From: Streptomyces showdoensis
GTDB taxonomy: Bacteria > Actinomycetota > Actinomycetes > Streptomycetales > Streptomycetaceae
Assembly (NCBI RefSeq): GCF_039535475.1
Contig: NZ_BAAAXG010000006.1
Span: 62,001-126,000, forward strand
DNA: 64,000 bases
Reading direction: 5' to 3'
The number at the start of each line of letters is the position of its first letter. Position 1 is the first letter of the stretch. The notes beneath the pieces are model-generated. The model was given only the letters and a program-made list of their open reading frames with translations, made no database searches and was not told the DNA's origin. A program made the position numbers and the translations under genes. Of the stretch, positions 13,108 through 62,964 are shown one piece after another.

Positions 13108-13809
13108 GTGATCATGCTGCTCGGCGTGTCTCTGTTGTCTCAGTACGGATCGCTCCTCGCGCGGCCCCTTGCGGCCGGGGCGCTCGTGTGGCTGCTCGCC
13201 ACACCGGTGCCCGTCGCCGCCGACGCCTGCGCCTCCGCCACGACCGGACCCGACGGTTCGAACACCGCGGTCGCCTTCGCCGGACGGGGCCCCTGCCGCC
13301 CCACCCACCACCCGCACCCACCCCACCCGACGCACCCCACGCACCCCACGCACCCCACGCACCCGCCCCACCCCACCCATCCGCCGCACCCCACGCACTC
13401 CCCCTGCCCCACGGAGCCGCCGAAGCCCACCGAGACGCCGAAGCCGCCGGAGCCCACGAAGCCGCCCGAGCCCCCCGAGCCGAGCCCTCCGCCTCCGCCG
13501 CCCCCGCCCAGCCCCGTACCGCCGCCCGCGCCGAAGCCCCCGCCCGTGCGCACGCCTCCCCCGCCGAAGCCGGCCCCGGCCCCCGAGCCCGCACCCACCA
13601 CGCGCGAGGCCGCGCCGCCGCCCGCGCCGCCGAAACCTTCCCCCTCACCGACCCTGCGCCCGCCCGCGCCCGTGGCCCTGCCGCACTACCGGCGGGCGGC
13701 GGCCCGCGCGAAGCCCGAGAGCGCCCCGAACGTCCTCACCACCACCCTGCTCATCACCGCCCCGGCCGTGATCGCGACCGCGATCCTGCGCCCCCGCGGT
13801 TCCCGCTGA
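13108..13809 (+). CDS. secreted proline-rich protein with C-terminal membrane anchor
   Basis: About 233 residues. An N-terminal hydrophobic export signal (LAAGALVWLLATPVPVAADA) is followed by a short region with two Cys, then a long His-Pro-Thr and Lys-Pro-Pro repeat region (HPTHPTHPTHPPHPTHPP, PPKPTETPKPPEPTKPPEP). Near the C terminus is a hydrophobic segment (VLTTTLLITAPAVIATAIL) and a basic tail (RPRGSR). The layout is that of a wall-spanning stalk tethered to the membrane; the His-rich part could bind metal. The start is uncertain (GTG 13108 or ATG 13114; no clear ribosome site). It lies 28 bases upstream of the DUF4239 gene, suggesting an operon. Confidence 0.65.
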   Translation: MIMLLGVSLLSQYGSLLARPLAAGALVWLLATPVPVAADACASATTGPDGSNTAVAFAGRGPCRPTHHPHPPHPTHPTHPTHPTHPPHPTHPPHPTHSPCPTEPPKPTETPKPPEPTKPPEPPEPSPPPPPPPPSPVPPPAPKPPPVRTPPPPKPAPAPEPAPTTREAAPPPAPPKPSPSPTLRPPAPVALPHYRRAAARAKPESAPNVLTTTLLITAPAVIATAILRPRGSR

Positions 13810-13837
13810 GCCCCGCGCTCGGCCAACGGAGGAAACC

Positions 13838-14602
13838 GTGTCCGAATGGCTCGTCCTGACCATCGCGATGGCCGCCGCGTGCGCCGTCGTCCTCGCCATC
13901 GTCGTCATCAACCACCGGAGGATTCCGGAGGACGACGACCCCAGCGAGACCCCTGACGTCATCGAGTACATGACGATGATGATCGGCGTGGTCTACGCGA
14001 TCGTCCTCGGTCTCGCGATCGCCGGCGTCTGGGAGGCCCGCAGCGCCGCCCAGGAGACCGTGCGCCAGGAGGCGCAGGCGCTGCACGAGATCTCCGCGCG
14101 GGCCGAGGTGTACCCGGTCGCCGTGCGGGAGCGGATCCGCTCCGACGTCGACACGTACGTCCGGTACGTCGTCGAGGGCGAGTTCCCCCACATGTCGGAG
14201 CACGGCGAGCTCAGCGACGAGGGGACGGAGCTGCTGGAGAAGGTGCGCCGGAGCGTGACCGACTACCGGCCGGCCAACGACTTCGAGGGGCAGGCCTACC
14301 AGCCGCTGGTGGACCAGGTGGCCGTCGCCGACGACGCGCGCGGGGCCCGCGGGCAGAGCGCGGGGGACACGATGCCCGGGGTGGTCTGGTTCGGCCTGAT
14401 CATCGGCGCCCTGGTGACCGTCGGCCTGATCTTCACGCTCCAGATCCGGCGCACCGGGAAGGAGTTGCTGCTCGCCGGCCTCTTCAGCGCGCTGATCGCC
14501 TTCCTGCTCTTCCTCATCTGGGACTTCGACGCCCCCTTCGGCAGGGGCATCGCCGCGACCGCCGCGCCGTTCACCGACCTGTTCCCGCAGCTCACCGGCT
14601 GA
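13838..14602 (+). CDS. DUF4239-type membrane protein
   Basis: A 254-residue integral membrane protein with GTG start and GGAGG upstream. Two hydrophobic segments at the N terminus (LVLTIAMAAACAVVLAIVVI; MTMMIGVVYAIVLGLAIAGVW) flank a cytoplasmic loop. A long soluble helical region (about 75-180) follows, then two C-terminal membrane segments (VVWFGLIIGALVTVGLIFTL; LLLAGLFSALIAFLLFLIW). This matches the DUF4239 (bestrophin-like) architecture. Function unknown; it sits between a secreted stalk protein and sortase-associated proteins, so a cell-envelope role is inferred. Confidence 0.8.
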   Translation: MSEWLVLTIAMAAACAVVLAIVVINHRRIPEDDDPSETPDVIEYMTMMIGVVYAIVLGLAIAGVWEARSAAQETVRQEAQALHEISARAEVYPVAVRERIRSDVDTYVRYVVEGEFPHMSEHGELSDEGTELLEKVRRSVTDYRPANDFEGQAYQPLVDQVAVADDARGARGQSAGDTMPGVVWFGLIIGALVTVGLIFTLQIRRTGKELLLAGLFSALIAFLLFLIWDFDAPFGRGIAATAAPFTDLFPQLTG

Positions 14603-14768
14603 CCGGGGAGCCCTATGTAGGCCGGGTGGGGGACTTCGGTGCCCCATTCGCGCGTCTGGGATCGCGGCTGTGATAGAGGGCTCCTAGCGTTTCGGGCATC
14701 GAGGTGCATGTCATCCGATGTGTGGAAAACCCTTCCGCAGCTGCTCCTCGGGACCCGGAGGATTCACC

Positions 14769-15329
14769 ATGCGCGCGATACGTGCCGCGTCCACCGTTCT
14801 GCTGGGGGCGGCCGCCCTCGCCCTGGCCGCGCCGCTCGCCGTCGCCGCCGACGGCCCGCCCGGGGCGCCGCGGCCGCAGGCGCCCCGGGCCAAGCAGGCG
14901 GGCGACTTCGTCATCTCCCCCGGGACCGTCGCCCCGGGCGGCCGGATCACCCTGAGCGCCCCGGGATGCGCGAGTACGGCGACGGCGTCGGCCGGCATCT
15001 TCGACACGGTCACGATCGCGCCGGGTTCGTCGGCGACCGCGGCGGTGGACCTCGACGCCAAGCGCGGCGCCGTCTACACGGTGTCGTTCAACTGCACCGG
15101 GGGGATCTCCAACACCGTCGACCTGACGATCAGCGGCGGAGCCACCTCGACGCCCACCGCGAGCTCGACGCTGCTGAACCCGCCGCGCGGAGTCCAGGGC
15201 GGCCTCGGCGGCTCCATCGGCTCGGCGGACGCCTGGACGATGGCGGCCGGCGGTGCCATGGTGCTCGCCGCCGCCACCGGTGTGGTGCTCGTCGTGCGGC
15301 GCAGGTCCGCCGAAGGCCGCCGCCACTGA
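14769..15329 (+). CDS. secreted protein with QGGLGGS motif, C-terminal membrane segment and basic tail
   Basis: A 186-residue exported protein. The signal peptide (about 1-27, ending AVAADG) leads into an Ig-like domain with two Cys (67 and 109). The motif QGGLGGS (143-149) follows, then a hydrophobic segment (about 156-176) and RRR tail (177-179). This is the order motif, membrane segment, positive tail found in sortase substrates, although no LPXTG or LAXTG is present. I start at the ATG after GGAGG rather than at an earlier in-frame codon. A paralogue with the same motif is encoded convergently and a class F sortase lies next door. Confidence 0.82.
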   Translation: MRAIRAASTVLLGAAALALAAPLAVAADGPPGAPRPQAPRAKQAGDFVISPGTVAPGGRITLSAPGCASTATASAGIFDTVTIAPGSSATAAVDLDAKRGAVYTVSFNCTGGISNTVDLTISGGATSTPTASSTLLNPPRGVQGGLGGSIGSADAWTMAAGGAMVLAAATGVVLVVRRRSAEGRRH

Positions 15330-15353
15330 CGGCCGGCGCGGACGGTGCCGCGC

Positions 15354-15402
15354 ACGCCCGTCGCCCCCGGGTCCTGGACGAGGACCCGGGGGCGACGGGC
15401 GT
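15354..15402. terminator. bidirectional hairpin between two secreted-protein paralogues
   Basis: Perfect 22-base arms (15354-15375 and 15381-15402) around a GGACG loop, placed between two convergent genes. Such long GC-rich hairpins without a T run are typical Streptomyces terminators. Confidence 0.85.
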
Positions 15403-15429
15403 TGCGGGCCGACCGGGAGGTTCGGCCGG

Positions 15430-15954
15430 TCAGACCGCGCCGGACATGCGGCGCCGGCGGGCGATGAACAGACCGCCGCCCAGCGCGGCCGCGGCGACCA
15501 GGCTGCCGCCGACGGCCATCTCGGTGGAGCTCGGCGCGAGCGAGCCGCCCAGGCCGCCCTGCGCACCCTGGCCCGGCAGCACCCGGAACGGCTGGGTGAG
15601 CGTGCGGCCGCCGCACTGGACGGCCAGGTTGTACTGGCCCGGGGTGGCGTTGTTGTAGATGCGGGCCGTGGCGGTGGACACCCCGTTGACGGTGGCGGAG
15701 AGCGTGGTCGTCGCGAAGGCGTTGGACGTGACCGTGCCGCCGGCGCAGCCCCGGACGGTGATCGTGAGGATCGCCCCCTGGTGGACCGCGAAGGGCGACA
15801 CCGTGACGCCGTTGGAACCGTCTCCGCCCCGCTGGACCTCGGAAGAGTTGACGGTCACGCTGCTGGGCCCGTTGGTGGCGGTGGCGAGGGGGGCCGCGAG
15901 TCCGAGCGCCGCGAACGCGGTCGCCGTCACCGCCAGAGTGCGTGCAGCACGCAT
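15430..15954 (-). CDS. secreted protein with QGGLGGS motif (paralogue)
   Basis: A 174-residue exported protein paralogous to the one encoded convergently 100 bases away. It has a signal peptide (about 1-28), a domain with Cys70 and Cys114, QGGLGGS at 132-138, a membrane segment (about 146-165) and an RRRR tail (166-169). AGGAGG precedes the ATG chosen; a longer frame upstream lacks a ribosome site. Middle domains differ (the shared pattern is mainly SP-x-V-x(3)-G and the two Cys) while both ends are conserved, as expected if the C terminus is a processing or anchoring signal. Confidence 0.82.
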   Translation of the reverse strand: MRAARTLAVTATAFAALGLAAPLATATNGPSSVTVNSSEVQRGGDGSNGVTVSPFAVHQGAILTITVRGCAGGTVTSNAFATTTLSATVNGVSTATARIYNNATPGQYNLAVQCGGRTLTQPFRVLPGQGAQGGLGGSLAPSSTEMAVGGSLVAAAALGGGLFIARRRRMSGAV

Positions 15955-16278
15955 GGTGGAACCTCCTGTGGAAGACGCCCCAAAGCGGTGCTCCGGGAGA
16001 TTCGACGAGTACGCCTTCCATGACGAACCATCACAAGACGGAACGGGCCCCGCATGTCGGCCTTGGGCCACCCCGGTGAGGCCGGGCACCGGCCGAACGG
16101 TGGGCGAATCTGACGGTTCCGCAGGTCACGCACCATCAGGCCGATGATCTGACGATTACTCGGATGGGTTATCACCCGGACGCCGCCGCACCGACGGCCG
16201 ACACCCGTTCGCCCCGCCCCGATCGCCGGTCCCGCCGGGCGCCCTTACCGTTCCCGTGACGCCCACGAAGGGAGAACC
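15955..16278. other. divergent promoter region of paralogue and sortase
   Basis: 324 bases with no convincing gene between the minus-strand secreted protein and the sortase. It contains GC-poorer stretches suited to promoters on both strands, but I could not identify specific operators. Confidence 0.4.
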
Positions 16279-16938
16279 ATGAGGACCAAGGACTTCAGCG
16301 TCCTCGACGCGGCCAGGAGACGCCAACCCTGGGGAGCCCTGGCTCTGGTGATGCTGTCCGGCCTGGCGATAATGCGCAACGGCGTCGGCTTCGAATCGGG
16401 TCCCCCGCAGCCCGCCGCCGCGGCCCGTCCGGTCATCCGTCCCGTCGGCCCCGCTCCGACCGCGGCCGCCGGGATGGAGCCGCTGCCGTTCGCCCCGGCC
16501 TCCCGGATCCGCATCCCGGCCCTCCGCGTGGCCGCCCCGATCATGGACGTGGGCCTGGACGACAACGGGTGGATCAGCGCTCCCCCGCCGCAGGACGCCA
16601 ACCTCGCCGGCTGGTACCAGAACGGCATCGCGCCGGGCATGCGCGGCACCTCCGTCGTCGTGGGCCATGTGGACAACCAGGCGGGCCCCGCCGTCTTCTA
16701 CGGGCTCGGCTCCCTGCAGAAGGGCCAGCACGTCGAGGTCGAACGGTTCGACGGCCGGATCGCGGTCTTCGAGATCTACGGGGTCGAGGTCTACGCGAAG
16801 AACGACTTCCCCGTACAGGTCTACGCCGACACCGGCGAGCCCGAGCTCCGGGTGATCACCTGCGGCGGCGGCTACTCGCGGGCGCACGGCTACGACGGCA
16901 ACGTGGTCGTCTACGCCCGCATGGTCGACTCGCGGTAG
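16279..16938 (+). CDS. class F sortase
   Basis: A 219-residue sortase that would join or anchor secreted proteins at the cell wall. An N-terminal membrane segment (about 18-33) and Pro/Ala linker precede the catalytic domain. Active-site residues are His130 (VVVGHVDNQ), Cys195 (RVITCGGGY) and a basic residue at Arg201 in the SRAHGYDGNVVVYA strand. The short length and sequence around TCGGGY fit class F of actinobacteria. GGGAG precedes the ATG. Two secreted proteins sharing an unusual C-terminal motif are encoded immediately upstream and are the obvious candidate substrates. Confidence 0.9.
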   Translation: MRTKDFSVLDAARRRQPWGALALVMLSGLAIMRNGVGFESGPPQPAAAARPVIRPVGPAPTAAAGMEPLPFAPASRIRIPALRVAAPIMDVGLDDNGWISAPPPQDANLAGWYQNGIAPGMRGTSVVVGHVDNQAGPAVFYGLGSLQKGQHVEVERFDGRIAVFEIYGVEVYAKNDFPVQVYADTGEPELRVITCGGGYSRAHGYDGNVVVYARMVDSR

Positions 16939-60754: not shown

Positions 60755-62964
60755 GGCGCGTACCGGGTCAACATCCCCACCGGCCCGAACCGGCGAAGGA
60801 CTCCGGTCGCGCCGCCGTCGACCCGGCGGACGACGACCTCAGAGCCCTGTTCGGCGAGACCACCGCCGTCTTCGCCTCCCTCGCCGGCCCGGCGCACCTG
60901 GTCGAGAGCGCCAACCCGGCCTTCTTCAGCGCCATCGGCGCCGGCCCGCGCGTCCGCACCGGCGTCCCCCTCGGACAGCTGCTGCCCGGGCCCGCCGGCC
61001 AGGGACTCATCGGACTCCTCGACCGGGTCTACCGGTCCGGCGCCCCCCGCACCGGACGCGACGCCCGGGTCCTCCTCGACGACGGGGCCGAGCCGCGGGA
61101 GGCCTTCTTCGACTTCAACTACGAGCCGCGCGTCGACTCCGGCGGCAACGTCACCGGCGTCCGGGTCATCGGGGTCGAGACGACACAGGTCAGGCAGGCC
61201 CAGCGGTTCACGGCGGAGCACCGCGCCCTCCTGGAGCAGATCGCCCGGCAGGCACCGCTGCGCGAGGTCCTGGACGGCATGGTCCGCGCGATAGAGGAAC
61301 TGTCGCCGGAGGACCTCGTCGTCTCGGTGCTCCTCGCCGACCAGGAGGGCCGGCGCCTGGTGCACGGCGCGGCTCCCAGCCTGCCCGACTTCTACAACCG
61401 GGCCGTCGACGGGATCGCGATCGGCGAGGGCGCCGGGTCCTGCGGCACCGCCGCGCACCGCCGCGAGACCGTCATCGTCGGAGACATCGCCGCGGACCCG
61501 CTGTGGGACGACTTCCGCGACCTGGCGGGACGGGCCGGCCTGGCCGCCTGCTGGTCCACCCCCGTCCTGGGACGCGACGGCTCGGTCCTGGGCACCTTCG
61601 CGATGTACCACCGCACCCCGAGACTCCCCCAGGCGGCCGACCTGGCCCTCGCCCGCCTCTTCGCCGACACCGCGGCCCTCGCCGTGGAGCGGCAGCAGGC
61701 CGAGGCCGCCCGCAGCGCCGCCGAGGCCCGTGAGCGGGCGGCCCGCGAGGACCTCGCCTTCCTCCTCCAGGCCAGCACCGCCCTCACGGTCGACCTCGAC
61801 GCCGTCCAGACCCTGGAGCGACTCGCCGCCTCCTGCGCCCCGCGCCTGGCACCGCTGTGCGCCGTCGACGTGGTGGAGAACGGGCGCCTGCGCCGGGTCG
61901 CCACGGCCGCCCCGGACGAGCGCCGGCGGGAGGTCCTCGCCTCGCACATCCCGGTCTACGACTCCGACGACGACGCCGTCGCCCGGGTCCTCGCCACGCG
62001 CGCGAGCGAGGTCGCCCGGCGCGCCCCCACCGGGCCCGGCCCCTGGCAGGACCTCGGCGTGACCGGCTACCTCTGCATCCCGCTGCTGGACCGGGGCACC
62101 GCCTTCGGCACCGTGACGCTGCTCTCCACCGAGGCGGAGCCCTTCGACGGGCACCGCGTGGCCCTCGCCGAGGAGCTGGCCCGGCGCGCCGCCTCGGCCG
62201 CCCGCAACGCCCGCCAGTACACCCACCGGGTGACCCTCGCCCGGGACCTCCAGGCCGGGCTGCTCATGCCCGAACTCCCCGACGTGCCCGGCGCGGACGT
62301 CGCCACCTCCTACCACCCCGCCGGGGAAGGCCTCGACATCGGCGGCGACTTCTACGACGTCTTCCCGCTGGACGACGGGCGGTGGGCCTTCCTCCTCGGC
62401 GACGTCTGCGGGCGCGGAGCCATCGCCGCCACCACCACCGCGCTCGTCCGCCACACCGCGCGCGCCGTCGCACCCCTCCTGCCCGGCCCCGAGGACGTCG
62501 TCGCCGCCGTCAACCGGGCCCTCGTCAACCGCCCGGGCAGTCACGGAACCGGCTTCGTCACCCTCGTCTACGGCCGGCTGACCCCCACCGGGCACGGACT
62601 GGACGTCGAGCTGGTCCGGGCCGGTCACACCCTGCCCCTCCACCTCGACACCCGCCACACCACCCGCCTCGTCGACGCCCCCGGATCCCTGCTCGGCATC
62701 TCCGCCGAGACCGACGTCGTCTCCCGGACCCTCCACCTCGACCCGCACGAAAGCCTGCTGCTCTACACCGACGGCATCACGGAGGCCCGCGACGACTCGG
62801 GCGAGCAGTTCGGAGAGAAACGGCTCGCCGAGGCCGTCGCCGGGGCCCCGCCACGCCCCTCCGCCCAGCAGGTCGTCGACGCCCTCACCGGCGCGGTGCG
62901 CGACTTCACGGGCGGACAGGACATCGACGACGACCGGGCGGTCCTCGTCCTCACCGCCACCTGA
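60751..62964 (+). CDS. PAS-GAF-GAF-PP2C (SpoIIE) phosphatase
   Basis: A 737-residue regulator: PAS (about 30-155), GAF1 (about 165-320, EGAGSCGTAAHRRETVIVGDI, a redox/ligand-type GAF signature), GAF2 (about 340-505), and SpoIIE PP2C (about 525-735) with intact motifs DIGGDFYDVF, GDVCGRGAIAA, LYTDGITEARDD and DDDRAVLVLT. Expected to dephosphorylate the STAS protein with which it is translationally coupled (ATGA overlap). Several ligands could be sensed; none can be named. Confidence 0.92.
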   Translation: MRRVPGQHPHRPEPAKDSGRAAVDPADDDLRALFGETTAVFASLAGPAHLVESANPAFFSAIGAGPRVRTGVPLGQLLPGPAGQGLIGLLDRVYRSGAPRTGRDARVLLDDGAEPREAFFDFNYEPRVDSGGNVTGVRVIGVETTQVRQAQRFTAEHRALLEQIARQAPLREVLDGMVRAIEELSPEDLVVSVLLADQEGRRLVHGAAPSLPDFYNRAVDGIAIGEGAGSCGTAAHRRETVIVGDIAADPLWDDFRDLAGRAGLAACWSTPVLGRDGSVLGTFAMYHRTPRLPQAADLALARLFADTAALAVERQQAEAARSAAEARERAAREDLAFLLQASTALTVDLDAVQTLERLAASCAPRLAPLCAVDVVENGRLRRVATAAPDERRREVLASHIPVYDSDDDAVARVLATRASEVARRAPTGPGPWQDLGVTGYLCIPLLDRGTAFGTVTLLSTEAEPFDGHRVALAEELARRAASAARNARQYTHRVTLARDLQAGLLMPELPDVPGADVATSYHPAGEGLDIGGDFYDVFPLDDGRWAFLLGDVCGRGAIAATTTALVRHTARAVAPLLPGPEDVVAAVNRALVNRPGSHGTGFVTLVYGRLTPTGHGLDVELVRAGHTLPLHLDTRHTTRLVDAPGSLLGISAETDVVSRTLHLDPHESLLLYTDGITEARDDSGEQFGEKRLAEAVAGAPPRPSAQQVVDALTGAVRDFTGGQDIDDDRAVLVLTAT

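Follow-up and report, generated by a model that had tools for sequence, protein, structure and literature searches.

What does a class F sortase act upon when no canonical sorting signal is encoded around it? The question is raised by a 64,000-nucleotide stretch of Streptomyces showdoensis DNA (positions 62,001 to 126,000 of contig NZ_BAAAXG010000006.1; hereafter the window), in which the gene for such a sortase (16279..16938, forward strand) adjoins two genes for small secreted proteins, namely A (14769..15329, forward strand) and B (15430..15954, reverse strand). An earlier note on this DNA had described A and B as paralogues sharing the C-terminal motif QGGLGGS, a membrane helix and an RRR tail, and had suggested that this motif, or a site near it, is the recognition signal of the neighboring enzyme. 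The comparisons presented below support this, the preferred reading of the signal being G-[V/A]-x-G↓G-x-G-G-S (the arrow marks the predicted cleavage point), and by genomics it is well supported that the tails of A and B work like a sortase signal. We consider it highly probable that the locus is a dedicated class F sortase-substrate cassette whose signal is a glycine variant, and in which A and B are substrates cleaved at the predicted Gly-Gly bond. Somewhat less firmly, we favor the broader proposal that the class F sortases of actinomycetes, whose active site is His-Cys-Asn, recognize a code of their own, PxGx[VAP]x[T/A/G]GxGG, usually on the protein encoded immediately upstream, and that one Streptomyces clade has drifted to glycine at P1, cutting between two glycines and installing the paralogous pair of A and B.

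The sortase and its two neighbors

The open reading frames (ORFs) for A and B lie on opposite strands and are thus convergent. They encode proteins of 186 and 174 residues, respectively, which share 39% identity upon alignment and whose homology is recovered by profile comparison with 99.6% probability (E 1.3e-23), confirming that they are paralogues. Each possesses a signal peptide, as read from the sequence, followed by a compact domain with two cysteines, the glycine-rich motif, a hydrophobic helix and a terminal RRR; hence, the order of elements is that of sortase substrates. In A, the two cysteines, C67 and C109, are invariant across 46 aligned A sequences, and the segment PRGVQGGLGGS leads into a C-terminal helix and RRR tail (15234..15305, forward strand) delineated from the sequence with a hydropathy scan. 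The proposed sorting signal of A, PPRGVQG↓GLGGS (15180..15215, forward strand), takes its register from the aligned tails of class F neighbors; when set against LPXTG, it would place P4 to P1' at G141, V142, Q143, G144 and G145, with cleavage between the last two. The corresponding signal of B, GAQG↓GLGGS (15541..15567, reverse strand), was positioned by alignment, with the cleavage point, between Gly133 and Gly134, likewise predicted.

The adjoining enzyme, a 219-residue protein with an N-terminal hydrophobic helix, was correctly recognized in the earlier note as a class F sortase: it scores 197.2 bits on the class_F_sortase profile NF033748 (cut-off 166) and 80.6 bits on PF04203. It has the catalytic residues His130 (16666-16668) and Cys195 (16861-16863), together with Asn208 (16900-16902) at the position occupied by arginine in other sortases. 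In the columns of an alignment of 128 class F sortases, these residues are present in 126/127, 125/126 and 123/126 members, respectively, with the asparagine column situated 13 residues past the cysteine. The replacement of arginine by asparagine in actinobacterial class F enzymes is already stated in a passage of PMC6998099, citing Malik and Kim 2019, and would be consistent with an altered substrate groove. Sequence searches against solved structures returned no convincing relative of either the sortase (one chance match, E 0.062) or A (one weak match, E 0.21). The host genome, 8.5 Mb in size, has 12 places matching PF04203, and class F matches fall in eight of its genes, seven over the cut-off and one split; the last of these (L046 in G000, C26:4027636-4028092) was matched as two separate pieces and is possibly a split gene.

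These features suggest a course of events along the following lines. A and B would be exported by Sec and retained in the membrane by the C-terminal helix and the RRR stop. The adjoining sortase would then recognize the glycine-rich segment ahead of the helix, a non-LPXTG signal of the form G-[V/A]-x-G-G-x-G-G-S, and its Cys195 would attack the carbonyl of the glycine that replaces the LPXTG threonine (Gly144 of A, Gly133 of B), releasing the helix. Finally, an amine acceptor, for which the peptidoglycan cross-bridge is the likeliest candidate, would receive A and B, which would thereby assume a putative role at the cell surface. The signal in the window may be regarded as the glycine end of a continuum found beside actinomycete class F sortases, running from [A/F/H]P-x-T-G through G-V-x-T-G and G-V-x-A-G to G-V-x-G-G.

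Conservation and spread of the proposed tail signal

The cassette was scanned by its sortase across named genomes, with the best 80 of 126 loci examined, one of which is labeled Microtetraspora glauca and the others Streptomyces. In 77 of these 80 loci, both A (forward) and B (reverse) are present upstream of the sortase with the motif, a co-occurrence beyond chance of the kind that the earlier note had called for; Streptomyces griseus (L171) is among the species that have the cassette. The three exceptions are L121, which begins 752 bases before the sortase, L197, in which the tail frames never reach a helix, and L168, which has neither A nor B; by tblastn, A was detected in 78/80 loci and B likewise in 78/80. 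Within the tail, the 46 aligned A sequences (alignment A4) and the 40 aligned B sequences (A5) all have GG-x-GGS; the rows of these alignments were drawn from sets of 75 and 74, respectively, extracted by a loose form of the motif, with one spurious B row excluded. A check free of this selection, in which the ectodomain was searched for and the sequence then read onward, recovered GG-x-GGS in 77/78 A and 74/77 B proteins. The sole exception among A proteins is that of L197, where the frame is broken in the tail, and those among B proteins are L121, which runs into a contig end, and L161 and L162, where the motif is present past a long insert, beyond the stretch read. This near-constancy is to be compared with a mean column identity of 56% in A and 63% in B. 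The helix and RRR tail described in the earlier note are common to both proteins; the glutamine of its QGGLGGS, however, is variable, and the heptapeptide is therefore to be shortened to GG-x-GGS, preceded by G-[V/A]-x. The insert in gene B of L161 and L162 is an extended low-complexity region rich in asparagine and glycine, placed ahead of the signal.

Approached from the substrate side, relatives of A are found at E<=0.01 in 124/150 Streptomyces genomes. In 102 of them, the top match reaches E<=1.3e-11, and in 97 of these 102 a class F sortase adjoins it. A sortase of the window clade (approximately E<1e-60) is present in 94 of the 102, within 3 kb in 91 and on other contigs in three. The remaining eight comprise five with another class F sortase beside the A relative (assigned by a profile built from four sequences; three of the five have the sortase ahead of A), one with the clade sortase split over two frames (L289) and two with none within about 3 kb (L290 and L292). 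The A relative of L290 (1-6528) reads GGPGNA in place of GGLGGS, which is perhaps a decay following loss of the enzyme. In the opposite direction, a clade sortase is present in 117 genomes, 23 of which lack A at E<=1.3e-11; hence, the sortase is also found without A. Two window-clade sortases, L087 (G064) and L091 (G090), have no partner tail that we could find next door.

The association extends well beyond this clade. A first set of 60 class F loci was taken from 17 Streptomyces genomes with 87 places over the cut-off, one of the 60 being a split gene below it. In this set, a C-terminal helix with a basic end was found in 41/47 same-strand ORFs located within 700 bp upstream of the sortase domain and in 0/59 downstream. 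A second set contributed 70 loci from 148 genomes of the same bacterial class, 30 from high-scoring matches and 40 chosen to span families; after two duplicates were dropped from the combined 130, 128 distinct loci remained. A C-tail ORF lies within 700 bp upstream of the sortase domain at 104 of the 128 (a count in which L216 is retained) and downstream at only seven. The loose motif is fitted by a tail at 96/104 upstream loci, as against 6/61 tails more than 1.5 kb away and 0/7 downstream loci (Fisher tests). As a regular expression it matches 89% of real pre-helix segments and 35% of shuffled ones; being weak alone, it leaves the case to rest on position, presence/absence and conservation. 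Of the 24 loci previously without a tail, 11 gained a plausible one from a profile search.

The signal common to these tails is P-x-G-x-[V/A/P]-x-[T/A/G]-G-x-G-G, in which, among tails scoring >3 in a seeded motif model, the T/A/G position is threonine in 57%, alanine in 34% and glycine in 7%, with the following glycine present in 96%. In the LPXTG register, P4 is mostly [G/A/H/S], P3 is [V/A/P], P2 is any residue, P1 is [T/A/G] and P1' is glycine. The form differs among lineages, with APQTG, FPQTG or HPPTG, all resembling LPXTG, in some, GVDTG in others, GVxAG in many Streptomyces tails and GVxGG in the window clade, the QGG of the window being the rare glycine form at P1. In one other family of actinomycetes (f16; L222, L223, L225, L228, L231, L234 and L253), the partner tail gene is upstream on the opposite strand and its signal reads G-[V/A]-x-A-G-G-G-G.

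An ad hoc score assigned a signal at 114/128 loci, of which L216 was dropped as a chance match to a non-tail ORF and L231 was relabeled from glycine to alanine, leaving 113. On the sortase tree (128 tips, 113 of them labeled), the P1 residue changes 13 times, compared with a mean of 43 and a minimum of 37 in 200 label shuffles. This would fit coevolution of enzyme and signal, but also their joint inheritance, and presence/absence is the stronger test. Fourteen genomes in which class F has no match at E<=0.001 were accordingly searched with a profile of 58 Streptomyces tails (A2), up to 150 candidates being scored per genome. The profile gave 20 matches at E<=0.01 in 10 of the 14 genomes (best 6.3e-6); on re-reading, the signal was absent from these, which were LAETG/LARTG proteins or unrelated membrane proteins, the weak matches L281 and L287 not being recovered. 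In 14 Streptomyces genomes with class F, the same profile gave a match at E<=7e-9 in every case, including G080, G069 and G010, which had no tail in the profile. One complete Streptomyces genome without a class F match (G088) has two other sortases and LAETG proteins, and no such tail. The test named in the earlier note, which would have gone against its suggestion had QGGLGGS proteins proved common where a class F sortase is missing, came out in its favor.

A similar picture is seen with the GVDTG form, defined in NCBI's NF058571: the domain is over its cut-off in 39/148 genomes, all of which belong to the 71 genomes whose class F match reaches E<1e-40, and in 0/77 of the others; this co-occurrence yardstick is ours and not NCBI's. 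Contrasts are also seen within genera, G088 against the other Streptomyces being one of three: G285 has both the signal and class F and G221 has neither, and G207 has both while G181 and G228 have neither, the negative genomes retaining one or two other sortases (G228 was scored negative as it is absent from the matched rows of the class F and GVDTG searches). Sixteen tail matches lying more than 3 kb from a class F sortase (E 3e-14 to 6.5e-5; a subset of such matches) were read singly: 14 have the same type of signal, with L108 divergent, one has LAETG (L110) and one is without a motif (L113). Those with glycine at P1 (L100, L101, L106 and L114, in G010, G040, G109 and G080, respectively) come from genomes holding a sortase in or nearest to the glycine clade. 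Such orphan tails fit sortase action in trans and count against a strict one-locus rule.

Known signals, objections and alternatives

How do these tails relate to signals already on record? The signals of classes A to E and the recognition of P4 to P1' are set out in part of PMC5148588. A heuristic scan of the window found no LPXTG or LAXTG among its eight C-tail ORFs, in agreement with the earlier note, and neither L-P-x-T-G nor L-A-x-T-G is present in A or B. The A tail scores 14.3 bits on PF00746 (cut-off 20), 13.3 on the LAXTG model NF041528 (cut-off 30) and 14.8-15.8 on the LPXTG_anchor model TIGR01167 (cut-off 15.9). The closest type is GVDTG, already catalogued by NCBI curators as NF058571, with which A and B share the C-terminal layout of motif, helix and basic end and the G-V-x-x-G register; they differ in having glycine where threonine stands, and fall below its cut-off of 29 bits (A 18.8-23.1 depending on the length supplied, B 17.5 and 20.7), placing them outside the family as defined. 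The LAXTG substrates of class E sortases, which include the chaplins, are likewise sortase-linked and have the signal peptide, motif, helix and basic tail; here the enzyme class and the pentapeptide differ. With the class F enzyme of Cutibacterium acnes and its LPXTG substrates, the window shares the class of enzyme, and forms near LPXTG, namely APxTG, FPQTG or HPPTG, are carried by some class F partners outside it, but the window signal has neither proline at P3 nor threonine at P1. We found nothing in the open-licence literature linking QGGLGG or GVDTG to a sortase.

If the proposal holds, most class F sortases of actinomycetes would acquire assigned substrates; passages of PMC13251363 and PMC6998099 describe the roles of these enzymes in actinobacteria as unknown. 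A signal whose link to the sortase is one of position and presence points to candidate substrates for most of the class F enzymes examined and renders their function testable. Existing means mostly miss these tails: in PMC13251363, substrates are listed by LPXTG, NPXTG, SPXTG, PPXTG, LPXTA and LAXTG, and the Pfam anchor domain, used as the substrate search in PMC6998099, matched 9/58 class F neighbor tails, weakly, at E<=0.1. NF058571 matched 48 of the same 58 at that threshold and 67/86 at E<=0.001. A threonine-free signal would extend what sortases are known to recognize and could serve as a new ligation tag.

Several observations weigh against the proposal. According to the relevant part of PMC13257024, the characterized class F enzyme, that of C. 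acnes, uses LPXTG; part of PMC13251363 reports that a quadruple class F deletion in Actinoplanes missouriensis had no phenotype. No characterized precedent for glycine at P1 was found. On isolated tails, TIGR01167 gives 15.8 and 15.7 bits, a near miss of its cut-off. Further, the loose motif also fits 35% of shuffled segments, and the residue frequencies come from a model seeded with the expected consensus and supplied with 109 tail ORFs, only those scoring >3 being counted. No signal could be assigned at 15/128 class F loci, two of which, L087 and L091, belong to the clade of the window sortase. Matches to the GVDTG domain below its cut-off (E<=0.001) occur in 22 further genomes, seven of them without class F at E<1e-40. 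Both the gene neighborhood and the tree agreement can stem from joint inheritance, and covariation between sortase residues and P1 offers only two independent pairs on well-supported branches, leaving that comparison without power.

Among the alternatives, the one that survives best accepts the recognition of the tail and departs only in the product: A might be joined to B, or each to itself, in a pilus-like polymer, or the proteins might be released. The presence of two related small substrates per dedicated sortase would suit such an outcome, as would the change of the active-site arginine to asparagine, with which the chemistry may differ; at most class F loci, in contrast, there is one neighboring tail protein and not two, and we regard this option as possible but improbable. 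It is less likely still that A and B are ordinary membrane proteins that cross the bilayer once, with the glycine motif as a flexible linker and the sortase serving other proteins. The fit of the loose motif to shuffled segments speaks for it, but the near-invariance of GG-x-GGS is unexpected of a linker, and neither the concentration of tails upstream of class F sortases nor their absence from all 14 class F-free genomes read is accounted for. We give yet less credence to the idea that the processing of A and B falls to a class E (LAXTG) sortase, with the class F gene as a mere linked partner; the 12 PF04203 places and eight class F genes of the host do imply four other sortases, but the tail type tracks the class F tree, and G088, with its two sortases and LAETG proteins, has no such tail. 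GlyGly-CTERM tails also have glycines before a helix and RRR, a likeness shared by A and B, and rhomboid-like matches below the cut-off occur in 21/21 genomes searched, as they do in 14/14 control genomes; processing by a rhomboid or rhombosortase is nevertheless very improbable, as the association is with a class F sortase and no rhombosortase exceeds the TIGR03902 cut-off in any of the 21 genomes.

Neighboring genes

Directly upstream of A, the window encodes a protein with a Bestrophin-like domain (PF14023; 13838-14602, forward strand), which is retained in 73/80 loci. Preceding it is a secreted protein rich in proline and histidine (13108-13809, forward strand) that has a C-terminal hydrophobic stretch and an RPRGSR end without the glycine signal, and has relatives in 44/80 loci. 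Between the convergent genes A and B, a perfect 22-base inverted repeat with a 5-base loop (15354-15402) was read by eye; it is perhaps a terminator common to the two.

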